From positions 1 to 21,965 of the IMG/VR virus record IMGVR_UViG_3300025640_000067: a stretch of DNA of 21,965 nt, one strand, 5' to 3'. Below the pieces are notes generated by a model. That model had not been told where the DNA came from. It searched no databases and saw nothing but the letters and a program-made list of their open reading frames with translations. Below are positions 3,955 through 19,722 of the stretch, piece after piece (position 1 is the stretch's first letter; every line of letters begins with the position of its first letter). This DNA is from a virus. The position numbers were made by a program, and so were the translations under genes.

Positions 3955-4656
3955 TTAATACTTTCCTTTCCGACCTTTGTAGACCTTAACTCCATGATAG
4001 TTTGATGAGCTAAAGTCGAAATCGCTCCTGAATAAACCTCGAGTTGAATTCCTCTTTCCAGAAAGAACCTGCTTCAGTTTGTCCAGCTTCTCTAAGCCAA
4101 GCTCGTAAACGCACTGGTATATGTCCTTGAATTCGTAGTTCTCGCCGTCTATAGTCTTCAAAGACACAGGCTCGGAAAATTCTTTCTTCACGTACCTGCC
4201 GCCGCACATACGCTTCTTACCGCTGATGTTCTTCAAACCCAAAAAGTGGGCGCAATCAGCTTGAGACTCAAATGTTTTTTCAGAGCCATCAGCGCAGTCT
4301 ATGATTGTAACCGGATTGCAAGTGGACAAAACCTTGCCACCAACACCGCCAAGGCGAGTGTTCATACAGTCTGGATTGCCGACTTGTTCTTTGTCGACTA
4401 TCAAAGACTCAATCTCATACGCGTCATCAATGCTGTCGGTTTCAATCAGAATCTCTTTTCGGAAATTCTTGTAACCGTATTTGATGACGGAGTCGATAAG
4501 AACAGACTTGACCCCTTTCTTCTGTAAATTGATTGCGGTACCGTCACTGCATACACCACAGCCTATATACCCATCGCTTTTGCGGCGCTCTGAATGGACG
4601 CCGTAGTAATAACGGCTAGTTGGAATGCAAGTTGTTTTGTAAACGTAGTGCCTCAC
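3955..4656 (-). CDS. GIY-YIG homing endonuclease
   Basis: A 233-aa protein. The N-terminal catalytic domain shows YVY at residues 4-6 and YYYG at 17-19 (the GIY and YIG positions), basic HSERRK at 21-26, the catalytic-Glu segment EIESLIVDKE at 81-90, and the closing NTRLGGVGG at 99-107. Two NUMOD1-like DNA-binding repeats follow, centred on VTIIDCADGSEKTFES (about 116-131) and VSLKTIDGENYEFKD (about 164-178), each ending in a helix with LGL. The start is GTG at 4656, overlapping the upstream stop as GTGA; no ATG gives a complete GIY motif. Free-standing endonucleases of this type spread into sites in related phage genomes. It has inserted within the structural operon without breaking a neighbour. 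Confidence 0.9.
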   Translation of the reverse strand: MRHYVYKTTCIPTSRYYYGVHSERRKSDGYIGCGVCSDGTAINLQKKGVKSVLIDSVIKYGYKNFRKEILIETDSIDDAYEIESLIVDKEQVGNPDCMNTRLGGVGGKVLSTCNPVTIIDCADGSEKTFESQADCAHFLGLKNISGKKRMCGGRYVKKEFSEPVSLKTIDGENYEFKDIYQCVYELGLEKLDKLKQVLSGKRNSTRGLFRSDFDFSSSNYHGVKVYKGRKGKY

Positions 4657-4922
4657 TTGCCCTTTAGGTATTTAGGGCTGTTTTTACTCCACAGCTTCTT
4701 GCACGCCCAGTACCGGGCCGTAAGCTTGTCATTAGCTGTATCGCATCTATGGCGAGCTTTGAAATTTTTGCGGGCCGCAGCACTGTAGTTCGACTTGTAA
4801 CCCTTTGCACCAAAATGGATAATCTTTTCCTTACCATTGGCACAAGCCTTGACCATCATCTTCTTGCCCTTGCTCGTAGACCGCGTAGGCGAGTTGCACT
4901 TCATCTTACTCTTCTCTGCCAT
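4653..4922 (-). CDS. small Lys/Arg-rich phage protein (89 aa)
   Basis: A very basic protein with CNSPTRSTSKGKKMMVKAC near the N-terminus, then GKEKIIHFGAKGYK, a KNFKARHRC segment and ARYWACKKLW near residue 75. The order 'CN-x-P-x-R-basic-VKAC-x-x-GKEKIIHFG...RKNFKARH...YWA-x-K-x-W' matches a widespread small protein of uncultured marine phages as I recall it; it may belong to a DUF5872-type family, which I cannot verify here. Its four cysteines might bind zinc. I chose ATG 4922, which overlaps the preceding stop (TGATG), over the GTG one codon earlier. Nucleic-acid binding is plausible from charge. Confidence 0.8.
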   Translation of the reverse strand: MAEKSKMKCNSPTRSTSKGKKMMVKACANGKEKIIHFGAKGYKSNYSAAARKNFKARHRCDTANDKLTARYWACKKLWSKNSPKYLKGK

Positions 4923-5551
4923 CACGTACTCTTTGCTTGGATGACAATCCAGTTGACGCCGTCAGACCAGACAGCAATACCGTTGTACACCTTGTTAATC
5001 CTATACGATGCCTCCCCGTCAATGGTCTCAGAACCCGGAGCATAGATATCGACCTTGTCCTGTGCCGTGACAGTGCCGTCGTTGACGATACGCAGAAAAC
5101 GATAAGGAATAGCCGCAGCAGAAGGCAACGTAAGGTTGTGAGTGCCAGAACCACCGACCCAAGTCAAGTCGACAATATTTTTGCTCGTAGTAATAGTAGA
5201 TGACCCGCCGGGACCGACAGTCATAAACTCAGGCTCCAAAACAGCTACGCCGCCAACGTTGTTGAGCGTATTGTCAATGGTGACGTTGTTGCCGCCAGAC
5301 TGAGAGAGACCGATACCAGAACCAGCCGTGAGCTGGACAGTAGAGTTGAGGCCGCTGACAGCATCCAAGTTCAAGTCTACGTTGTCGCCGTCGGTGCTAG
5401 AGTTGAGCGTATACACGTCAGAAGTGCCTGCGCCACCAATCTCCTCGATGGTATACACATCGCGCAAAGGCTGCACGGTAGCACTGCCCCTATCGGTGGT
5501 GTCAACACTAGGTGCTACGCCGTGGAATTTTGTGCCGGGAGGTATAGGCAT
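4922..5551 (-). CDS. KFH-module virion protein (209 aa)
   Basis: It starts with the shared module (IPPGTKFHGVA, then DTTDRGSATVQPLRDVYTIE at about residues 16-36). The remainder differs from the other paralogues: a Gly/Ser/Asn-rich beta region, a GGSGTHNLTLPSA segment and a C-terminal part of the form YRFLRIVNDGTVTAQDKV...NKVYNGIAVWSDGVNWIVI. That ending resembles beta-strand C-terminal domains of phage tail and appendage proteins, in which an aromatic strand closes the fold. The start is TAATG-coupled to the paralogue upstream. Probably a virion surface protein; exact place in the particle unknown. Confidence 0.8.
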   Translation of the reverse strand: MPIPPGTKFHGVAPSVDTTDRGSATVQPLRDVYTIEEIGGAGTSDVYTLNSSTDGDNVDLNLDAVSGLNSTVQLTAGSGIGLSQSGGNNVTIDNTLNNVGGVAVLEPEFMTVGPGGSSTITTSKNIVDLTWVGGSGTHNLTLPSAAAIPYRFLRIVNDGTVTAQDKVDIYAPGSETIDGEASYRINKVYNGIAVWSDGVNWIVIQAKST

Positions 5552-6090
5552 TACTCTACAATTTTATACTGAACGTTAATCTGAACGGTGCTGTCACCAA
5601 CTGTAGCAGGCTGGTCTGAAGAAAACAAACACAAATACAAAGGGCCGTTATCAACTAATGGCGAACTTGTCCATGTATTAAGTCTGCCTACATTGGCCAA
5701 AGACCAATCGTTATAAGACTGAGATATGCCTTGCAAGGAACTGTTAACAAACATCGCTTGACTAAATTGATATCCACCAAAAGGCGCCGGTGAAACATCA
5801 AGTTGAGTTCCATTGGGGTAGTCGAAAGGAACGCTGTTAAAAAACAACTTCATCTGGGCCGAAAGAACCAAAACGCTTTTGCCTACCCCCGGAGCGGGAA
5901 CCACCTCTATAGCCGTAGTGTTTAACGCTATAACGTCAGATGCAGAAAGAGTTGTAGAGACATTTAAAGGAATGTCAAAATCCTCTATAGTATACGCGTC
6001 GCGTAAAGTCTGAACCGTAGCGCTGCCAAGGTCAGCGGTATCAACGCCGGGAGCAACGCCGTGGAATTTTGTGCCTGCGGGGATAGCCAT
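5551..6090 (-). CDS. KFH-module virion protein (179 aa)
   Basis: The N-terminal module (IPAGTKFHGVAPGVDTADLG...RDAYTIEDFD) is followed by a domain shared with the next two genes. That domain has LSASDVIALNTTAIEVVPAPG, a KSVLVLSAQMKLFFNSVPFDY strand pair and a C-terminus ending in VGDST-x-QI-x-V-x-YKIVE. It forms, with 6090-6623 and 6623-7168, a set of three full-length paralogues in tandem. TAATG overlaps link the set. A role in a repeated appendage or decoration layer fits; no catalytic motif seen. Confidence 0.8.
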   Translation of the reverse strand: MAIPAGTKFHGVAPGVDTADLGSATVQTLRDAYTIEDFDIPLNVSTTLSASDVIALNTTAIEVVPAPGVGKSVLVLSAQMKLFFNSVPFDYPNGTQLDVSPAPFGGYQFSQAMFVNSSLQGISQSYNDWSLANVGRLNTWTSSPLVDNGPLYLCLFSSDQPATVGDSTVQINVQYKIVE

Positions 6091-6623
6091 TACTCTACAA
6101 TTTTATAATCAACAGTTATCTGCATAGGGCTATCACCAACGGTAGGCGCAAGAAGTTGGTCTTGCATACCCAAAACAAGTGAGCCGTTGTTAACTAAAGA
6201 GCTGTTTGCGAAAATATTCCCCCACCTATTTAATGAATACCAAATGTCGGAGGAAGAATTAAAGTCTTGGGCAGGCTGAAAATACTGGTAGCTTACGTAC
6301 GATGGTAAAGTAGGAGACGGATACATAAATAGACCCAGATAGTCACTGCCAAAATCGTATGCAACACTATTAAATACCATCTTAATCGATGCCGAAAGAA
6401 CGACAATGGCTTTCCCTTCTCCCTGAGGGGGGACAATCTCTATATAGCTATCCCCTAGAGATAAAATTTGGGCAGGAGTAATATCGACAATCGTGCGTAT
6501 AGGAGTGCCAAAGTCCTCAATAGCGTAAGCGTCTCTATTGCTGTTGGCGATACTGCTACCACGATTTATCGTGTCAACGCTCGCGGCAACGCCGTGGAAT
6601 TTTGTTCCTTCTGGAATAGCCAT
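6090..6623 (-). CDS. KFH-module virion protein (177 aa)
   Basis: The middle member of the tandem triplet. The module here is the most diverged: IPEGTKFHGVAASVDTINRG, then SNRDAYAIEDFG. The C-terminal domain keeps ILSLGDSYIEIVPPQGEGKA, an MVFNSVAYDF strand and the ending VGDSPMQITVDYKIVE. The sequence between is rich in Tyr, Phe, Ser and Pro and differs strongly from its neighbours, as expected of a surface loop under diversifying selection. I chose ATG 6623, overlapping the previous stop as TGATG, instead of the GTG one codon earlier. Its DNA is AT-richer than the tail gene. Confidence 0.8.
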   Translation of the reverse strand: MAIPEGTKFHGVAASVDTINRGSSIANSNRDAYAIEDFGTPIRTIVDITPAQILSLGDSYIEIVPPQGEGKAIVVLSASIKMVFNSVAYDFGSDYLGLFMYPSPTLPSYVSYQYFQPAQDFNSSSDIWYSLNRWGNIFANSSLVNNGSLVLGMQDQLLAPTVGDSPMQITVDYKIVE

Positions 6624-7168
6624 CACTCTACAATTTTATAACCAACAGTTATCTGCATAGTGCTGTTGCCGTTTTGAGTAGCAGGGGGAGCCGATGCGTA
6701 TATATACAGTGGGGTGTTAGCAACCAAAGGGGTAGCATTACGATAATTACCCTTATAGTTGAACCTGAATACACCGTCTGAATTAGCGTTCATAGCGTTG
6801 TTGGGGACGTCGACGTCAGCCTCTAACGAAGCCTGAACATAAGTCTGGCTGCTTCCACCCGGATTTGTAGCAAGGCGAATAGGCTGTTGGCCTAACGGAA
6901 AGTCATAAGGGACACTGTTAAACGATAACTTCATAATAGCCCAACTAACAATGATGGCTTTACCCTCACCCTGAGCGGGGACAACCTCTACAGGAGTAGT
7001 GTCTAAAGCAAGAATCTGAGCAGAAGAAAGCTCGATGGTAGAAGTTCTATCGCCAAAATCCCCTATAGTATACGCATCGCGCAAAGGCTGCACGGTAGCA
7101 CTACCCCTATCGGCGGTGTCAACGCTCGCGGCGACGCCGTGGAATTTTGTGCCGGGAGGTATAGGCAT
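6623..7168 (-). CDS. KFH-module virion protein (181 aa)
   Basis: First gene of the tandem triplet. The first 37 residues are nearly identical to those of the 4922-5551 protein (MPIPPGTKFHGVA, DTADRGSATVQPLRDAYTI), including the underlying DNA. The rest follows the triplet pattern: ILALDTTPVEVVPAQGEGKA, then MKLSFNSVPYDF, ending NSTMQITVGYKIVE. The same N-terminal module on different C-terminal domains argues for recombination by module shuffling. It lies 83 nt after the 77-aa gene, the largest gap in this operon. Confidence 0.8.
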   Translation of the reverse strand: MPIPPGTKFHGVAASVDTADRGSATVQPLRDAYTIGDFGDRTSTIELSSAQILALDTTPVEVVPAQGEGKAIIVSWAIMKLSFNSVPYDFPLGQQPIRLATNPGGSSQTYVQASLEADVDVPNNAMNANSDGVFRFNYKGNYRNATPLVANTPLYIYASAPPATQNGNSTMQITVGYKIVE

Positions 7169-8051: not shown

Positions 8052-8474
8052 ATGAACTATTTAAAGTACTGGCGCGTAGTGCGCTATTTCATCAATGCCA
8101 AGTACGGCATTACCCAACCCGACCTAGAGATGCTCATCTTCCTCTACGATGAGCCATACTTTACCCGGGCCAAATTCAAAGAGTTCGATAAAGTCTTCTC
8201 GTGGGATAAAGACCGCTTCAAACGCCTAGTAAAAAACGGGTGGGTGGAGAAAGTATCCGTAGAGTCAAAGTCAAGGCTAGGCGTATACAACCTGACCTAC
8301 GCAGCCAAGAGAGTAGTAGGGTACGCATATGCCATACTGCAAGGCAAGGAGTTCCCAACAGACGACCAGAACAACCCAGTCTTTAAACGCAACGTGTCAT
8401 TTACCGATAAGATGTACCGGAACGTGATGATGGAAATCAATGAAGCACAACGACAACATCGCGCTCAGAAATAA
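8052..8474 (+). CDS. winged-helix-like DNA-binding protein (140 aa)
   Basis: I chose ATG 8052 (MNYLKYWRVVRYFINAKYGI) over the in-frame ATG 8010, because 8010 would overlap the oppositely oriented membrane peptide and the NYLKYWRVVRY start is the conserved one as I remember the family. The pattern is helix-helix, LEMLIFLYDEPYFTRAKF, KRLVKNGWVEKV and a beta-wing (SRLGVYNLTYAAKRVV), as in MarR/PadR-type winged helices. The C-terminus NNPVFKRNVSFTDKMYRNVM is also typical of this phage family. It is the only plus-strand gene between two leftward operons and its 3' end overlaps groES by 38 nt. A transcriptional regulator role is inferred. Confidence 0.8.
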   Translation: MNYLKYWRVVRYFINAKYGITQPDLEMLIFLYDEPYFTRAKFKEFDKVFSWDKDRFKRLVKNGWVEKVSVESKSRLGVYNLTYAAKRVVGYAYAILQGKEFPTDDQNNPVFKRNVSFTDKMYRNVMMEINEAQRQHRAQK

Positions 8475-8697
8475 TGGTGCGGGCAATACCATCAATCAAC
8501 ATAGTATAGCTGGCACGCTTGTCGTAGTATAGCTCCTCGCCAGCGTCGATGCTGGTGACGTCAGTGCCAGAAGCCACAACGAGACCACGACCGTAGCGCA
8601 TCTGGTCGGCGTCGTCAGAACTGAGTAAGATGCCGCTGGCAGTAGTCGTCTCCTCCTTGATGGCGTCGATGACAATATATTTTCCTATGGGACGCAT
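8437..8697 (-). CDS. groES: GroES-like co-chaperonin (86 aa)
   Basis: Aligns by eye over its whole length with GroES: start MRPIGKYIVID (GroES RPL.DRV.V), mobile-loop region KEETTTASGILLSSDDADQ at residues 14-32 with the hydrophobic GILL that docks on GroEL, then GRGLVVASG, and the C-terminal strand LIDG..RTIISERDVVVVL. At 86 aa it is about ten residues shorter than bacterial GroES. It should form the lid for the chaperonin encoded in the same operon (groEL, orf85, groES in order of transcription, the reverse of bacterial groES-groEL). The start lies 13 nt inside the preceding gene; the end overlaps the convergent winged-helix gene. Confidence 0.85.
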   Translation of the reverse strand: MRPIGKYIVIDAIKEETTTASGILLSSDDADQMRYGRGLVVASGTDVTSIDAGEELYYDKRASYTMLIDGIARTIISERDVVVVLH

Positions 8698-8942
8698 TGA
8701 ATAAAAATTGGTGTCAGCGGACCCATATACGCGCCCGCAATATTAAAATCAAAATGCTCTATAGCTCCCTCCTCGTCCATATCGTGCTCGAGGACTAAGA
8801 GCTCAAGGATACGCCCGATGTCATAGCACACGCGGTATCCCTTGTCAACCTCAGTGATGCCGATGATGGCAGCGTCAAAACCGTCGGCGAACATAGCCCC
8901 GGCATCAATGGCCTCAAGCCAATCAGTAATCTCTTCCCTCAT
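8685..8942 (-). CDS. conserved phage protein between groEL and groES (85 aa)
   Basis: An acidic protein with FDAAIIGITE, a YDIGRILELLVLEHDMDEEGAIEHFDFNIAG helix-turn region and GPLTPIFIQ at the C-terminus. The pattern 'DGFD-x-AIIG...YD...I..L....M..E.A.E.F.FN..G.Y.G..TPIF' recurs in phage and giant-virus genomes as a small uncharacterised family, as far as I remember. It is coupled to groEL by ATGA and overlaps groES by 13 nt, so the three proteins are probably made together. Whether it takes part in folding or is only a passenger is unknown. Confidence 0.8.
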   Translation of the reverse strand: MREEITDWLEAIDAGAMFADGFDAAIIGITEVDKGYRVCYDIGRILELLVLEHDMDEEGAIEHFDFNIAGAYMGPLTPIFIQCVP

Positions 8943-10480
8943 GCCCGTGCCAGTGTGATGATAGCCTGAGTACTCAAGATAGTGACCGCAACGCTTACAG
9001 CGTTCTGTAAAGCAGACTTAGTGACGCGGGTAGGGTCGATGACGCCCATGTCAATCATGTCGCCGTACTCGCCAGTCTTAAGGTTGTAACCGCTGCCGTC
9101 AGGTGCCATACTGTAGTCAAAGTCTTCGCCGCAGTTCTCCATAATCTGATGCAAAGGAGCACGCAAAGCCTCACGCAATACTTCAGCAGCAGCACCCTTA
9201 CGGTCTGATAACCAGTTGCTTAGGTTGTAAAGGGTGACGCCGCCGCCAGCAACAATGCCGTCTTGCATAGCAGCGCGGACAGCGCACACAGCATCGTCGA
9301 CCCTGTCGTATAACTCCTTCTGCTCTAGGTCAGTATGGCCCCCGACCTCAATCACTCCTATACCTCCAGACAAGCCAGCGATGCGCTGGTTGATGAACTC
9401 TTTGTCGACGCGACGCTTGGTTAGTCGATATGCCTCCTGAAGCTCAGCGATGCGCTCGTCGATACCATCCTCTTTGTCGCCCTTGACAATGACAGTACTG
9501 TCGCGACCCACAACAACACGGTCAGCAAAACCCAAGTCGTCGAAAGCCATGAGGCTTAAGTCGTCGCCAGTCTTCTCACTGAAATACGTAGCACCAACGC
9601 TGACAGCCAAGTCTTGCATAAGCTCGTGCTGCTTATACCCGAAATTAGGAGGAGGAACAACACAGACCTTTAAACCCTTCTTGACAACATTGGCAGCAAG
9701 GGTGTTGATGACGTGAGTGCTGCACGGAGCAACAATGAGAAGACGCTTGCCCTCACGGATGATAGGACCTAAGACGTTCTCGATACTTAAGATATTGTTT
9801 ATCTCGCCGTCGCAGACCATAACGTGACAACCGTCTAGTATGCTCTCGTCACGGCTCTGGTCGTTGACAAACAACTCGCTGGCATAGCCACGGTCGAGCT
9901 TGAAACCATGAGTGACATCGAAACCAGTCTCGCTCGTCATACTCTTCTCGACAGTGACAACACCGTCTTTGCCAACCTCGCCATATACCTCAGCAATTAA
10001 ATTGCCGATGGCCTTATCGTTGTTAGCACTGATAGTAGCCACACTCCTCAAGTGCTTCTTGTTCAACCGACGGCTGCGACCGTCAAGCTCCGCAACAACA
10101 TCTTTAGTCAAAGACACCATGTCGCGCAAGACGTCAGTCTTTTTGGTATCGCCACCCAATACCCGTAAGCCACCCTTGACCAAAGCCTCAGCCAAAACAA
10201 TGCTAGTAGTAGTACCGTCGCCAGCCTCACTGGCCGTCCGGTCAGCAGCCTCCTTCATAATCCGTACCGCCAAGTTCTCGACAGGGTCAAGCAAGTCAAC
10301 AGCCTTAGCCACAGTAACACCATCCTTAGTGACCGTAATGCCATGGGTGTGGTGAGGACTCTCGATGAGTACCGTCTGGCCGCTAGGACCCAACGTACTC
10401 CTTACAGCTCGACTCAACTGCTCAATGCCGCTGATGAGCTTGTCGCCTTCGAAGTGAAGGTCTTTAGGTATTTCATTCAT
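8939..10480 (-). CDS. groEL: phage chaperonin GroEL (513 aa)
   Basis: A complete group I chaperonin. The ATPase parts are intact: TLGPSG (29-34), TKDG with Asp53, GDGTTT (87-92) with Asp88, Asp396 in RVDDAV, and AGGG (411-414), matching E. coli Asp52, Asp87, Asp398 and the following loop. The apical domain includes RGYASELF (197-204; Tyr203 of E. coli is Leu here). The equatorial end EYGDMIDMGVIDPTRVTKSA is canonical. It lacks the C-terminal Gly-Gly-Met tail and is about 35 aa shorter than bacterial GroEL. I chose ATG 10480 because a TAnnTTTG promoter element ends 7 nt upstream and the aligned N-terminus starts there; the frame stays open through a CT repeat further upstream. With groES it likely folds a phage substrate such as a capsid or tail protein. 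Confidence 0.95.
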   Translation of the reverse strand: MNEIPKDLHFEGDKLISGIEQLSRAVRSTLGPSGQTVLIESPHHTHGITVTKDGVTVAKAVDLLDPVENLAVRIMKEAADRTASEAGDGTTTSIVLAEALVKGGLRVLGGDTKKTDVLRDMVSLTKDVVAELDGRSRRLNKKHLRSVATISANNDKAIGNLIAEVYGEVGKDGVVTVEKSMTSETGFDVTHGFKLDRGYASELFVNDQSRDESILDGCHVMVCDGEINNILSIENVLGPIIREGKRLLIVAPCSTHVINTLAANVVKKGLKVCVVPPPNFGYKQHELMQDLAVSVGATYFSEKTGDDLSLMAFDDLGFADRVVVGRDSTVIVKGDKEDGIDERIAELQEAYRLTKRRVDKEFINQRIAGLSGGIGVIEVGGHTDLEQKELYDRVDDAVCAVRAAMQDGIVAGGGVTLYNLSNWLSDRKGAAAEVLREALRAPLHQIMENCGEDFDYSMAPDGSGYNLKTGEYGDMIDMGVIDPTRVTKSALQNAVSVAVTILSTQAIITLARA

Positions 10481-10494
10481 AGTGACCCAAAGAT

Positions 10495-10672
<178 letters not shown>

Positions 10673-10719: not shown

Positions 10720-11209
10720 CCTTAACCAAATTGCTCGCACTTGTCTGCTCGCAGAGGGAAGGTAACCTTTTCAAAACAGGTGTATGGAGTGTTTGGGTTC
10801 AATACCATCTGACGCGCTGACCCCGCTCGGGGAAGTCGATTTGTTTTCGATAGGGGGGGTCGCGGTTGGGTTCCCCCGTCCGGACTTTTTGCCGTTTTGC
10901 TGTGGCAGTCCTGCCCGCCCCCGTCCGGCTCGGTCAACGAGCCACGGCCCCGGCCCCTGTCCCCTGCCCCGGCCCCATGGCCGTGAATCGCCACGCAGTC
11001 CCCGCCCCTGCCCCTGTCCCTGCAAAGAGAGAGAGAGGGGGGCGCACCCGCCCCTTAACCCCCGCCCCTTGCGGTTGACGTGTTAACGTGTGGCCCTCCG
11101 GCCCTGATTCGTCCTGCTGTCTTGGTTTGGCGCGAAATAAAATTTACCCCGCTCTACCCCGCCAATGCTCAGTTCTTCGATTAATGCAAAAGAAATCTTC
11201 GCTCTGTGC
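10720..11209. other. gene-free GC-rich segment of the divergent control region
   Basis: I find no credible gene here: frames on both strands read through low-complexity Pro/Arg/Gly sequence. Contents: a CCCCG-CT-CGGGG hairpin near 10820, a G7 run at 10853-10859, the first GGCTCG palindrome (10927-10943), a block of imperfect C-rich repeats of the CCCCTG/CCCCGG type (about 10944-11022), an (AG)6 run into G6 (11026-11042), and C-rich sequence to about 11070. The strand bias (C-rich on plus, G-rich on minus) could allow quadruplex formation on the minus strand or favour R-loops. Just right of it lies the 11.2 kb promoter. Confidence 0.6.
10926..10944 (+). repeat. GGCTCG palindrome, copy 1 (intergenic)
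   Basis: C-GGCTCG-GTCAA-CGAGCC-A. A six-base perfect stem around a five-base NTSAN centre, with the invariant 5' C and 3' A seen in all seven copies. It lies in the GC-rich intergenic segment, about 340 nt before the first early gene. Confidence 0.85.
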
Positions 11210-11500: not shown

Positions 11501-11563
11501 GCGGCTCGCTCAACGAGCCAAGGGGCCATGGTGCTTGGCGGGGTTCGATTCCCTGCGCCCTTT
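11462..11563 (+). other. tRNA-like element (perfect T-arm, incomplete cloverleaf)
   Basis: CGGGG-TTCGATT-CCCTG (11539-11555) is a five-pair T-arm holding a B-box of the form GGTTCGATTCC. Its 3' flank CGCCCTT (11556-11562) can pair with AGGGGCG at 11462-11468 (seven pairs, one G-T). Between them lie a D-arm-like GCTC..TTGGT..GAGC (11481-11502), palindrome copy 2 readable as GGCTC-GCTCAAC-GAGCC (anticodon position TCA, but C at position 33), and a CCAAG/CTTGG hairpin in the place of a long variable arm. About ten nucleotides too many separate acceptor and D-arm, and the 5' side lies in a coding region. It is probably a degenerate tRNA, a tRNA-derived attachment sequence or a structured RNA, not a normal tRNA. 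Confidence 0.4.
11502..11520 (+). repeat. GGCTCG palindrome, copy 2 (2 nt after a stop codon)
   Basis: C-GGCTCG-CTCAA-CGAGCC-A. The stem starts 2 nt after the TGA of the 71-aa gene. It also forms the middle arm of the tRNA-like element described at 11462-11563. Confidence 0.85.
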
Positions 11564-11616: not shown

Positions 11617-12303
11617 ATGGCAAATTCAGCCAACACCCCCACCGCCCAATTCATCGAGGGCATCAAGTTCGGTGATAAGGTAACCCCCGCCACCCTGAGC
11701 AAGTCCATCGACAAGCTCACCGACCTTGGCAACAAGGCATTCGACCAAAACCTGTTCATCGGCTTCAAGCTGATTGTGGTTAAGGATTGGTGGAAGTCCG
11801 AGGGTAAGGACTTGTTCGAGGAGCAGGGCCTGAGCACAAATTGGCAGGAAGCTGTGCCGCACCTGACGGGCTTATCCAAGTCTGCCTTCAACAAGAAGCT
11901 CAAGGCGTACGCCGACTCTATCGAGCACCCCACCAAGCTCGAAGAGTACCGGGCCTTGGAGGCCACGGCGGGCCGCGAGTGCAACATGGACAGGTGGGCT
12001 GATTTCGTCCGTGACGGCTCGTTCAGCGAGCCAACCGAGGAGGAGGGCGAAACCAAAGCCAAGAACCTTGGGCAGTTCCAAGTGACGGGCTACACCCCTG
12101 CTGTGCGCATCACTGCTGACGGCTTGATTGAGACCAAGGCTGACGAGGACGGCATCATCATTGGCTTGGCTATCCTCAAGCGGTCACTGATTGCCTCCGG
12201 CATGGAGGCGGCGGCTGAGGCCATTGTCCTCCCCGAGGAGTTAGCCAACGGCGAGACTGCCGAGGAGTGCGCCACTCGGTTCTTCGCAGACCTCGCGAAG
12301 TAA
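11617..12303 (+). CDS. hypothetical early protein (228 aa), GSFSEP insert
   Basis: Starts MANSANTPTAQFIEGIKFGD. An N-terminal mostly helical part (to about residue 130) includes GLSKSAFNKKLKAYADSI, which has the look of a helix-turn-helix. A low-complexity linker follows with GSFSEP (residues 134-139, encoded by palindrome copy 3) and TEEEGETKAKN, then a compact C-terminal domain with QVTGYTPAVRI and ADEDGIIIGLAILKRS. I do not recognise the family. It is the largest early gene before the replication block and is followed by its own terminator. It might be a DNA-binding early regulator; this rests only on the helix pattern. Confidence 0.75.
   Translation: MANSANTPTAQFIEGIKFGDKVTPATLSKSIDKLTDLGNKAFDQNLFIGFKLIVVKDWWKSEGKDLFEEQGLSTNWQEAVPHLTGLSKSAFNKKLKAYADSIEHPTKLEEYRALEATAGRECNMDRWADFVRDGSFSEPTEEEGETKAKNLGQFQVTGYTPAVRITADGLIETKADEDGIIIGLAILKRSLIASGMEAAAEAIVLPEELANGETAEECATRFFADLAK
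12015..12033 (+). repeat. GGCTCG palindrome, copy 3 (in frame, encodes GSFSEP)
   Basis: C-GGCTCG-TTCAG-CGAGCC-A inside the 228-aa gene. It is read in the frame GGC TCG, giving Gly-Ser-Phe-Ser-Glu-Pro, in an acidic linker between the two parts of the protein. Confidence 0.85.
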
Positions 12304-12304
12304 T

Positions 12305-12323
12305 CGGCTCGCTGACCGAGCCA
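12305..12323 (+). repeat. GGCTCG palindrome, copy 4 (2 nt after a stop codon)
   Basis: C-GGCTCG-CTGAC-CGAGCC-A. The stem begins 2 nt after the TAA of the 228-aa gene, the same offset as copy 2, and directly precedes a UUCG-loop terminator. Confidence 0.85.
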
Positions 12324-12363: not shown

Positions 12364-12540
12364 ATGAGATTCCTTTCCACCCCCCTTTTGAGCGCAGTTC
12401 GTTGCGTGTGTTGGTTCATTGTCCTTGGCGGCTTTTGGCTCCTCGGACTTTACGTGGCCGAGGTGCTTCTGTTCACCTTGTTTCCTGCCATCGGCCTGTT
12501 GGCTTTGTCTGAGACTGAGGCTGACCGCCGTAATAAATAA
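12364..12540 (+). CDS. small membrane protein (58 aa)
   Basis: ATG 12364 to TAA 12540. The protein starts MRFLSTPLLSAVRCVC and then has a long hydrophobic stretch with WFIVLGGFWLLGLY (about residues 17-30) and VLLFTLFPAIGLLAL (about 34-48), ending in a charged tail SETEADRRNK. One or two transmembrane helices are likely, with a positive N-terminal region before and a charged C-terminus after. It begins only 9 nt after the terminator, so expression would need read-through or a short unseen promoter; this lowers confidence. Size and layout would allow a holin-like or host-membrane-modifying peptide, but no further evidence supports either. Confidence 0.5.
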   Translation: MRFLSTPLLSAVRCVCWFIVLGGFWLLGLYVAEVLLFTLFPAIGLLALSETEADRRNK

Positions 12541-12552
12541 ACAGCAAAACAT

Positions 12553-12582
12553 TTGCACAGTTCAAACATTCAACGTACATTG
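12553..12582 (+). promoter_or_regulatory. early promoter, duplicated type A, copy 1
   Basis: TTG (12553-12555), a 20-nt spacer starting CACAGTTCAAACATT, then TACATTG (12576-12582), one base short of TAnnTTTG. Nearly the same sequence, with identical spacing, recurs at 15368-15397. The start codon ATG 12587 lies 4 nt past the -7 element, so the mRNA is expected to be leaderless. Confidence 0.6.
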
Positions 12583-12586
12583 CACC

Positions 12587-12877
12587 ATGATTGAGACCCA
12601 CACCATTCCCCTCATTGCCCCGACCGCTTCCGGGCAGACTGACCTGACCGCAGTGCTGGTCACTGAGTACGGCCCCTTGCAGGGTCACGCCTCACCTATC
12701 GTTCGCCGCCAAGAGGTATCTCGTTGGCACAAGATGGACTCGACCCACATCCGTGTCCGCGAGGTATCGTTGGACGGCTCGTTGAGCGAGCCAATCCACG
12801 AGGGCTGTTGGCACATCGGTCAGCTCTCACCTGACTCACCTCTCTTCACCGCCGCTCAAATCGTCCTGAACAAATGA
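12587..12877 (+). CDS. hypothetical early protein (96 aa), GSLSEP insert
   Basis: I chose ATG 12587 (MIETHTIPLIAPTASGQ) because the promoter element ends 4 nt upstream; the open frame before it overlaps the membrane-protein gene. The product is a soluble beta-rich protein containing VVRR/VSRWHKMD-like charged turns, GSLSEP at residues 64-69 (palindrome copy 5), and HEGCWHIGQL after it. I do not recognise the family. It is coupled by ATGA to the next gene. Confidence 0.7.
   Translation: MIETHTIPLIAPTASGQTDLTAVLVTEYGPLQGHASPIVRRQEVSRWHKMDSTHIRVREVSLDGSLSEPIHEGCWHIGQLSPDSPLFTAAQIVLNK
12775..12793 (+). repeat. GGCTCG palindrome, copy 5 (in frame, encodes GSLSEP)
   Basis: C-GGCTCG-TTGAG-CGAGCC-A, read as Gly-Ser-Leu-Ser-Glu-Pro inside the 96-aa gene, the same reading frame of the element as copies 3 and 7. 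Confidence 0.85.
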
Positions 12878-13326: not shown

Positions 13327-13568
13327 ACATAGAATTCCCACCCCTTTACGGCTCCGACCTTGTGTCTGCGGCCCTTGTCGTCACTGCCTTGTCTCAGGTT
13401 CCTGAGCCTGTAGACATCATGTGTTGCGGCTTCAACACCTCAAGCGGCTACGTATACATCGCCCTTGAGAACGGTGTGACCATCGCCTCGTGCTTCGGTC
13501 AGAGCGTGGACTACATCGTGACTGACAGTGACGAGGAGAAATTCTACGACAGCTACCCGGCTCGTTGA
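13323..13568 (+). CDS. hypothetical early protein (81 aa), stop inside palindrome
   Basis: I chose ATG 13323 (MNIEFPPLYGSDLVSAALVV), overlapping the preceding stop by ATGA. The product is a small alpha/beta protein with IMCCGFNTSSGYVYIALENG and an acidic end SDEEKFYDSYPAR. The stop codon TGA (13566-13568) belongs to the loop of palindrome copy 6, so the present C-terminus may have been set by the arrival of that element. Family unknown. Confidence 0.7.
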   Translation: MNIEFPPLYGSDLVSAALVVTALSQVPEPVDIMCCGFNTSSGYVYIALENGVTIASCFGQSVDYIVTDSDEEKFYDSYPAR

Positions 13569-13576
13569 GCGAGCCA
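13558..13576 (+). repeat. GGCTCG palindrome, copy 6 (contains a stop codon)
   Basis: C-GGCTCG-TTGAG-CGAGCC-A. The TGA in the loop terminates the 81-aa gene. The element is immediately followed by CAAATACAAT and the start of the 153-aa gene. Confidence 0.85.
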
Positions 13577-15110: not shown

Positions 15111-15355
15111 GAACAAAGCACCTCGACTACACTCCCTCCGACCTGCCCCGCCTGATTGTGGACAGCATCAGACGCATCAGGATACCCAACCCTTTGAGGC
15201 ACAACAGACAGCTCGTTGGTGTCACTGCCTTCAGCGAACGCATTGTATTGAACACATGGCTATGTCTATGGGACTCGTATGACGCTCGCATACCCGACCA
15301 CCATGCCATTTCGAATCAGTTCGAAACGCTGACAGTAGAAAAGTTAGGGAAATAA
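15104..15355 (+). CDS. hypothetical early protein (83 aa)
   Basis: ATG 15104 lies 6 nt inside the end of the preceding gene. The product is basic (MVRTKHLDYTPSDLPRLIVD, SIRRIRIPNPLRHNRQ) with a hydrophobic middle (VGVTAFSERIVLNTWLCLW). I do not recognise it. The stop is followed by an AATAAATA sequence also seen after the membrane-protein gene at 12540, where the duplicated promoter region begins. Confidence 0.65.
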   Translation: MVRTKHLDYTPSDLPRLIVDSIRRIRIPNPLRHNRQLVGVTAFSERIVLNTWLCLWDSYDARIPDHHAISNQFETLTVEKLGK

Positions 15356-15367
15356 ATAGCAATACGC

Positions 15368-15397
15368 TTGCACAGTTCAATCATTTATTGTACATTG
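15368..15397 (+). promoter_or_regulatory. early promoter, duplicated type A, copy 2
   Basis: TTG (15368-15370), 20-nt spacer beginning CACAGTTCAATCATT, then TACATTG (15391-15397). Matches the copy at 12553-12582 almost base for base and continues beyond it with GCAC-y-ATGATT. Here the ATGATT is not the gene start: the gene uses ATG 15418, so the leader would be about 15 nt. Confidence 0.6.
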
Positions 15398-15417
15398 CAC
15401 TATGATTCACAACTACA

Positions 15418-15648: not shown

Positions 15649-16073
15649 ACGAAGTACAAAACCCCGGCTCGGTGAACGAGCCACAGACACCGGAGGTCAC
15701 ACCGCAGACTCGTGACACATTGCTCGAACAGCTCAACTTCCTTATCGACGGAGCGCGTTCCAACCTGATGGACATGAAGGCAAGCCTTGCCATCGACGGC
15801 CCCTTGCTCAAGCCTGAGCCTCAGTATACCAAGGAGCAGGTCGTCAAGATGTTGCGCTCTGCGTATGACCTCGGAGCTACAGCACACGAGGAGAGCATGG
15901 AAGTACAGACGGATAGTTGGCAGGGTGGCGTCGCGGTAGACGTCGAGTTGGAAGAGGGTTGCTTCAGCTACAATGGCAGTGTCACTATAGAAGAGGATAC
16001 CATCAAGGATTTAGTCAACTTTGACACCCCCAAAATGACCGACGAGTGGGTCGAAGAAATCCTCAAGTCATGA
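15645..16073 (+). CDS. hypothetical early protein (142 aa), GSVNEP insert
   Basis: The N-terminus MNEVQNPGSVNEPQTPEV contains palindrome copy 7 as Gly-Ser-Val-Asn-Glu-Pro at residues 8-13, in a Pro/Glu-rich, probably disordered tail. A helical region follows (LLEQLNFLIDGARSNLMDMK), then YTKEQVVKMLRSAYDLGATA and an acidic C-terminal half. Family not recognised. Start and stop overlap neighbours by ATGA. Confidence 0.7.
   Translation: MNEVQNPGSVNEPQTPEVTPQTRDTLLEQLNFLIDGARSNLMDMKASLAIDGPLLKPEPQYTKEQVVKMLRSAYDLGATAHEESMEVQTDSWQGGVAVDVELEEGCFSYNGSVTIEEDTIKDLVNFDTPKMTDEWVEEILKS
15665..15683 (+). repeat. GGCTCG palindrome, copy 7 (in frame, encodes GSVNEP)
   Basis: C-GGCTCG-GTGAA-CGAGCC-A, seven codons after the start of the 142-aa gene. 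This is the rightmost copy; none was found to its right or left of 10.9 kb. Confidence 0.85.
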
Positions 16074-19089: not shown

Positions 19090-19559
19090 TTGAGTACGAG
19101 GAGTTCCTTTGTGAGCAGGATTACGAGGAGTGGTGGGAGCATCCTGAAGTGATGGAAATACACAAAGAGTTTTGCTCATTTCTTGAGGATGGCAATTACC
19201 GTGACCTACCTGCGCACTGGATAAAATACAGTGGTCACACAATTGCCCTTTCATCGGGCAATACGTATGACTTCTACAGACGAGGCATCACACAACAAGA
19301 AGCTGAGTTGCTTGCCATACAGTTTCTGGACAATAGGCTGGACAGGATGACGAAGTACCTGAGGAGAATGCGGAACCTTGCTCGCAAGCACAACGTGGAG
19401 GACATGAGTGACTACGAGAGGCACTGGTTCTTTCGCAAGAAAGCACGAGCGCCATGGTGGCCAAAGGGTGACTATGACTACCATGCGGGGGAGTACAGAA
19501 TATTCAGCTACCCCTTGCGTCTTCTGAACACCAATCGACTGAAAAACTACGGACAATAA
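19086..19559 (+). CDS. hypothetical protein (157 aa)
   Basis: Starts MIEYEEFLCEQDYEEWWEHP, strongly acidic for 40 residues, then turns basic with NRLDRMTKYLRRMRNLARKH (about 103-122) and Trp/Tyr-rich APWWPKGDYDYHAGEYRIF. No transmembrane segment. I do not recognise the family. The acidic-then-basic layout may reflect protein-nucleic acid contact. It ends just before the second control region. Confidence 0.7.
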   Translation: MIEYEEFLCEQDYEEWWEHPEVMEIHKEFCSFLEDGNYRDLPAHWIKYSGHTIALSSGNTYDFYRRGITQQEAELLAIQFLDNRLDRMTKYLRRMRNLARKHNVEDMSDYERHWFFRKKARAPWWPKGDYDYHAGEYRIFSYPLRLLNTNRLKNYGQ

Positions 19560-19562
19560 AAG

Positions 19563-19722
19563 ACCATGTCGGAATGTCGGTTTTCCTCTGGCCTATAGAG
19601 AGAGAGAGAGAATACTCTACTTTTCTTTTCTCCTACATACATACAAGAAGAATCGACATTATCGACACTAAGACTGAGTATCAATAAGTTAACTATAATA
19701 AACCGACACAAAAACCGACACA
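19563..19722 (+). promoter_or_regulatory. control region copy 2 before the primase gene
   Basis: Order: ACCATGTCGGAATGTCGG, CCTATAG, (AG)7 (19597-19610), T/C-rich stretch, TACAAGAAGAAT, CGACATTATCGACACT (19654-19669), TATAAT (19694-19699) and CCGACACA twice, 12 bp apart (19703-19710, 19715-19722). It matches copy 1 at 10495-10672 in order and orientation. No TTG/-7 pair of the Bacteroidota type is visible for rightward reading; the TATAAT and CCGACACA repeats sit next to the primase start. Candidate origin of replication or shared operator. Confidence 0.6.

Follow-up and report, generated by a model that had tools for sequence, protein, structure and literature searches.

Why should a phage bring its own folding chamber and its own lid, though its bacterial hosts already have one? 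This open question is raised by the IMG/VR virus record IMGVR_UViG_3300025640_000067 (21,965 bases, possibly a fragment; the whole stretch is called the window here), in which groEL and groES lie on the minus strand with a gene for an 85-amino-acid (aa) protein between them. Judged from sequence comparison, the pair probably constitutes a phage-dedicated GroEL-GroES machine with its own lid and a roomier or open cage for a virion protein, and the 85-aa gene would be a passenger. The features of the locus are the following:

8939..10480, minus strand: groEL, 513 aa, a group I chaperonin of the phage clade (Pfam, PHROG, residues, trees)
8685..8942, minus strand: 85-aa open reading frame (ORF) of the phrog_13182 family (E = 5.4e-20), sitting in the groEL-groES slot
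8437..8697, minus strand: groES, 86 aa (Pfam Cpn10, E = 1.1e-8; phrog_3188, E = 1.4e-11), with a shortened roof loop
8010..8474, plus strand: convergent gene, 154 aa (phrog_17028, PHROG match), the constant right-hand neighbour of groES
10488..10518, minus strand: candidate groEL promoter, TTG-N20-TATCTTTG (pattern scan and sequence)

The groEL frame, running from an ATG at 10480 to a stop at 8939, matched Pfam Cpn60_TCP1 (E = 1.1e-52) and the PHROG "chaperonin groEL" (phrog_5725, E = 1.8e-128), and the Cpn60 domain spans the whole protein (in the 553-aa frame, PF00118 aligned from residue 62 to 549, covering profile positions 1-487 of 490). A longer ORF from a GTG at 10600 is unlikely to mark the true start, because close relatives begin at the equivalent of MNEIPKDL. 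GroES was identified as Cpn10 by profile (PF00166, E = 1.1e-8) and bears the PHROGs label co-chaperonin GroES. The genes are tightly packed: the ATG of the 85-aa ORF overlaps the groEL stop (ATGA), the groES ATG falls 13 nucleotides (nt) inside the 3' end of that ORF, and the convergent gene shares 38 nt with the 3' end of groES. Both the ORFs and the profile matches thus bear out what had been described in the original prediction: an overlapping set of three minus-strand genes whose order is opposite to that in cells.

A scan of viral_contigs with the window GroEL showed that 363 of 368 candidate stretches encode a relative; the best 80 of these 363 IMG/VR relatives were retained and, together with the phage genome ctfjg026, make up the 81 loci examined. 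Two fragments, L011 (329 aa) and a cellular one of 98 aa, were kept out of the residue counts. The window GroEL and 81 of 81 clade GroELs carry the ATPase aspartates D52, D87 and D398, and the GG-rich tail was found in none of the 82 clade sequences, the window included, vs. 72 of 80 cellular ones; both observations agree with what had been predicted for the window, although the Gly-Gly-Met tail is usual rather than defining for group I chaperonins. The predicted divergence of the apical domain was also recovered, with the RGYASELF motif present and position 203 occupied by L or M in all 81 clade GroELs, vs. Y in 79 of 79 cellular ones. According to PMC3514286, the hydrophobic tripeptide of GroES contacts L234, L237 and V264 of GroEL. 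At these gripping positions the clade carried L234E, an intact L237 and V264A, each in 81/81, and V263A was equally uniform (81/81).

The lid, too, differed from its cellular counterparts. Clade GroES measured 85-86 aa in 81/81, and the roof span, counted between flanking columns, was 8 residues in every one of them, vs. 12-21 in 78 cellular GroES (17 in 32, 12 in 32, 16 in 10, 13 in 2, and 18 and 21 in one each; one 53-aa cellular fragment was dropped from the GroES counts). The position equivalent to E. coli Y71, which we take to be the dome tyrosine, was aromatic in 0/81 clade members vs. 78/78 cellular sequences. The mobile loop comprised 26 residues in 80 clade members and 27 in one, vs. 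24 in 71, 23 in six and 25 in one of the cellular set, and its hydrophobic tripeptide was kept (LLL 50, LIL 13, IIL 7, ILL 6, LVL 3, LML 2). The structural model of the window GroES (predicted local distance difference test, pLDDT, 88.9) resembled GroES (Z 10.9) more closely than gp31 (Z 8.8). New here are, in the lid, a shortened roof loop, a missing dome tyrosine and a mobile loop that is longer than in cells, and, in GroEL, the uniform change of two of the three residues gripping GroES and the erosion of the inter-ring contacts; a literature search that covered few subscription journals, and so does not prove absence, found no description of such lid or ring changes in phages.

Eight GroEL positions that we take to be inter-ring contacts were chosen for a test of the ring interface, and five of them (105, 109, 452, 461 and 464) are conserved in cells. 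With a 60% cut across 44 clade representatives, 5/5 of these columns fell below it vs. 40 of 355 conserved columns (p = 1.4e-5), and the loss was also detected when equatorial columns only were considered (p = 6.7e-5). The basic-acidic pair at 452/461 was present in 5/44 representatives vs. 76/79 cellular sequences, and position 464 was charged in 26/44 vs. 0/79; positions 452, 461, 463 and 464 are known from single-ring mutants (PMC5575113, PMC12696368). Since the back-to-back ring contacts appear eroded, the chamber may work with one ring only or with two rings in loose pairing.

These changes plausibly point to a phage client for a remodelled chaperonin. In the proposed machine, GroEL and GroES would form an ATP-driven chamber and lid, transcribed from the candidate promoter directly ahead of groEL; the reduced roof loop would give a roomier or open-roofed cage, the chamber would grip its lid via altered residues, and the rings would be single or loosely paired. 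Because the roof loop is much reduced and the chamber contacts the lid via altered residues, phage GroEL and phage GroES probably work with one another. One virion protein, or a few of them, would be folded in the cage, the major capsid protein being the likeliest; a candidate is the 479-aa head protein (phrog_13704) of ctfjg026, encoded one gene past the portal. What the comparison shows directly is the identity of the genes, their constant order, the monophyly of GroEL, the changes in residues and loops and the variability of the slot, whereas the specificity for the partner, the size of the cage, the number of rings, the client and the host are inferred. Several observations weigh against the proposal. 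A 12-residue roof is already present in 32 of the 78 cellular GroES, the Bacteroidota type being shorter than that of E. coli, so that the step to 8 residues may be small, and the GroES roof of DAC19 also spans 8 residues, though its GroEL groups among host GroELs. Elemovirus (Flavobacterium phages vB_FspP_elemo), with the same gene order, retains L234 and a 24-residue mobile loop. When the cut was set at 50%, only 2/5 inter-ring columns fell (p 0.03-0.06), a re-evolved double-ring interface is possible, and the capsid protein is guessed as client by analogy with T4.

The same data can be read as those of an ordinary double-ring GroEL-GroES, exchangeable with that of the host and raising chaperone dosage, in which the residue changes are drift. 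Intact ATPase residues and a GroES fold nearest to ordinary GroES are in line with it, and drift at contact sites is presumably common in diverged chaperonins. However, L234E, V263A, V264A and the replacement of Y203 by L or M are uniform in the clade rather than drifting, the roof spans 8 residues in 81/81, and at the 60% cut the loss hit inter-ring columns harder than the remaining conserved ones, which makes this explanation unlikely.

The dedicated machine has a bolder version. Single-ring E. coli GroEL traps its lid, and engineered systems regain function once the lid contact is weakened (PMC5575113); the grip and ring changes of the clade would fit this logic of weakened lid contact. The window and its relatives might encode a single-ring GroEL that is natural and self-sufficient, together with an open-roof lid that co-evolved with it; a weak grip (L234E, V264A) would replace the trans-ring release signal, much as engineered GroES variants do with single-ring GroEL, the open roof would allow an oversized virion protein to fold, and the chaperonin would be orthogonal, ignoring host GroES. 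We put this forward tentatively, as a doubtful possibility. A chamber that proved to be single-ring would parallel, in nature, the engineered single-ring GroEL-GroES systems (PMC5575113) and possibly make a small orthogonal folding tool. Lid roof, lid grip and ring contacts have all changed in one clade, and no loss of the pair was seen among the loci examined, which makes the question why a phage brings its own chamber and lid open to experiment with a single purified pair and a single capsid protein; it is these coordinated changes that deserve the bench test.

That the pair mainly serves host proteins or host defence, and not virion proteins, seems improbable. The authors of the phage EL study offer the blocking of another protein's folding as an alternative (PMC7185714), and the groEL promoter candidate is separate from the virion genes; against this, groEL and groES share their strand with virion genes, both here and in ctfjg026, and the lid changes parallel those of gp31, a capsid-protein helper (PMC6318259). 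The promoter candidate ends 7 nt ahead of the groEL ATG, and one copy of a 54-nt repeat covers it (10490-10543 and 19558-19611; the copies are 80% alike and contain a GA tract as well as CGACAT half-sites). Its form, TTG-N20-TATCTTTG, presumably fits the Bacteroidota promoter type; since a loose version of the pattern gave 11 matches in the window on both strands, only its location at a gene start favours it. The carriers of the pair are a large group of ~60-kb podovirus-like phages that probably infect Bacteroidota, a host assignment based on a BT4734-like primase domain in the window (Pfam), the form of the promoter candidate, the case of Elemovirus and the closest chaperonin of solved structure.

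The arrangement proved to be both widespread and constant. The order groEL, groES, convergent gene (phrog_17028) was found in 80/81 loci, the sole locus without groES being a 4.1-kb contig (L034). A search by the convergent gene (best 80 of 509 relatives) provided a less biased test, even if its alignment was still derived from groEL-bearing loci and many contigs are common to both locus sets: both chaperonin genes occurred in the same order in 74/80 loci, and in the remaining six groES was present and the contig ended 390-1004 bp past the convergent gene. No loss of the chaperonin pair was seen in these 80 loci reached via the neighbouring gene. Among 80 cellular loci used as control, groES lay upstream of groEL in 78 and downstream in one, and was not found in one. 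Other phages, immuto and phi40:1 (the latter with a different small gene between), show the cellular order. The arrangement is of an already known kind, through the cultured Elemovirus, and the view that a phage carrying both genes is uncommon has to be given up: phages with both subunits are already published (PMC7185714, citing Marine et al. 2017), the reversed order exists in deposited Elemovirus genomes, and relatives are encoded in 363 of the 368 IMG/VR stretches.

The slot between the two chaperonin genes was variable. The gap ranged from -17 to 2616 bp (median 239, 80 loci), with 15 loci at 20 bp or less, nine at 21-150 bp, 36 at 151-400 bp and 20 longer. The 85-aa family was the commonest occupant, in 24/80 slots with near-copies included (22 holders by clustering, plus L037 and L059 by tblastn). 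Other slots held a class II tRNA-synthetase-like protein (Pfam tRNA-synt_2, E = 2e-15), a 2-oxoglutarate-Fe(II) oxygenase (E = 7e-14), a phosphoesterase (E = 1.9e-5) or small membrane- or lipoprotein-like ORFs (named by eye). The synthetase-like occupant (L055:2388-3233, with relatives in L056, L057, L068, L069, L079 and L082) is a 281-aa class II core of the D/K/N type, and its small size suggests that an anticodon-binding domain is absent.

The 85-aa protein gave no match in the Pfam scan; PHROGs placed it in phrog_13182, a family of unknown function, whose profile matched the window protein (E = 5.4e-20) and 14/14 scanned slot members. Its predicted fold (pLDDT 95.4) had no match in the PDB at E <= 0.001, and 17 viral matches at the same threshold, none informatively named. 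The protein is thus conserved as a phage family, as originally stated, but not as a fixture between the chaperonins. A three-part chaperonin, in which this protein binds the translationally coupled pair as adaptor or regulator, was the other role envisaged for it; the ATGA and 13-nt overlaps and the rank of the family as most frequent occupant (24/80) speak for it. Yet 56/80 slots lack the gene, 15 slots of 20 bp or less among them, relatives of the protein occur in Bacillus phages, and among the 80 matches listed for the family only seven loci had groEL in the DNA at hand and 73 had none, 35 of the latter flanked by 3 kb or more on each side. On a 44-tip GroEL tree with 13 holders, the gene was gained or lost at least nine times, at least four of these events being forced by starred branches. 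With the slot variable, the family mostly away from groEL and gain and loss repeated, the third-component reading was rejected as very improbable, and the gene is probably a passenger in a variable cargo slot of the chaperonin pair.

The phylogenetic analysis was based on GroEL only. In a tree of 82 GroELs, 29 clade members formed one side of a branch (Shimodaira-Hasegawa-like approximate likelihood ratio test 99, stem 1.68), and in a second tree of 51 GroELs, with long rows removed, 17 clade members grouped together (support 100, stem 2.45). The first included 29 of the 44 clade representatives and every second cellular row, without PBS1; the second, with 26 chosen cellular rows plus E. coli, left out PBS1, Mx1, cr111_1, phi40:1 and VAP7 (long or diverged) as well as elemoC (a near-copy). 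Phage-hit records labelled Acinetobacter, Listeria, Enterococcus and Salmonella were kept out of both, an Acinetobacter-labelled one being chromosomal housekeeping DNA. This record (L179, CAKLQH020000021), named as an Acinetobacter phage, represents the bacterial chromosome surrounding groESL, and phage GroEL records in that public collection are therefore somewhat overcounted. Elemovirus GroEL joined the clade with a support of 94, not starred, at a point where long branches meet. The phage GroELs of the clade form, in these trees, one deep monophyletic group, and the pair, with no loss in 80 loci, is by this comparison a long resident rather than the passing acquisition that nesting in a recent host operon and loss in sister phages would have indicated. 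Prophage relatives in bacterial genomes above 41% identity were not found among the 80 matches listed. Recent capture of a host groESL operon, with the order later reversed, was rejected on the GroEL trees and is extremely improbable: the group I type, the best PDB sequence match (an ancestral Fibrobacteres-Chlorobi-Bacteroidetes chaperonin) and an origin inside the Bacteroidota/Chlorobi group that was not rejected (approximately unbiased test, p-AU 0.31) would be compatible with it, but the monophyletic clade has a long stem, its nearest cellular GroEL among the 80 matches listed is 41% identical, and, unlike the clade, DAC19 and four Vibrio phage GroELs group among host GroELs.

Elsewhere in the window, GGCTCGNTSANCGAGCC, a 17-nt palindrome of hairpin or operator type, occurs seven times between and inside early genes and is always followed by A:

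10927-10943, 11503-11519, 12016-12032, 12306-12322, 12776-12792, 13559-13575 and 15666-15682: copies of GGCTCGNTSANCGAGCC

No copy was expected from 100 shuffles; the 81 related loci held one copy on one contig (L009), and viral_contigs held it in 103 stretches, the 80 listed being nearly all single-site. A 68-nt repeat (12535-12602 and 15350-15417, 81% alike) carries TTG-N20-TACATTGC directly before an ATG, and its copies are likely a pair of Bacteroidota-type early promoters. Five minus-strand proteins (3-455, 4922-5551, 5551-6090, 6090-6626 and 6623-7168) share by eye a similar N-terminus of ~40 aa and then diverge; 33 of 39 residues are identical in one pair, and the segment looks like a docking segment on exchangeable virion proteins. 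A homing endonuclease (3955-4656, minus strand; phrog_314, E = 1e-23; I-HmuI NUMOD-like domain) lies amid the virion genes, and no RNA families were found in the window.

Among the closest known systems is ctfjg026 (MW202828, Podoviridae sp., Manatee Spring), with GroEL 57% and GroES 56.5% identical and the same order and convergent neighbour, although its slot measures 4 bp and lacks the 85-aa gene. Elemovirus (host Flavobacterium sp. BAL314, ~60 kb) has groEL then groES, overlapping as here, a homologous convergent gene beside groES (hhalign probability 98.8) and a homologous GroES with the 8-residue roof span of the clade; it differs in a GroEL only 35% identical, an empty slot, the retained L234 and the 24-residue mobile loop. 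Elemovirus also encodes a second, 180-aa protein annotated as chaperonin cpn10 (L165:276-818, minus strand), close to its structural genes and away from groES. Among virioplankton chaperonins there are phages with both genes, as here, and Marine et al., in their 2017 study in ISME J, reportedly tied gene order to GroEL phylogeny.

The chaperonins of phages EL and AR9 are likewise phage-encoded, with single-ring states (PMC7185714, PMC9598537); unlike them, the window pair brings its own GroES. T4 gp31 has no roof loops and longer mobile loops, and is believed to accommodate the 56-kDa capsid protein (PMC6318259). The parallel with the clade lid is a partial one: both are roof-reduced with a longer mobile loop, but gp31 uses the host GroEL, whereas the clade lid has its own GroEL and a nearer GroES fold (Z 10.9 vs. 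8.8).

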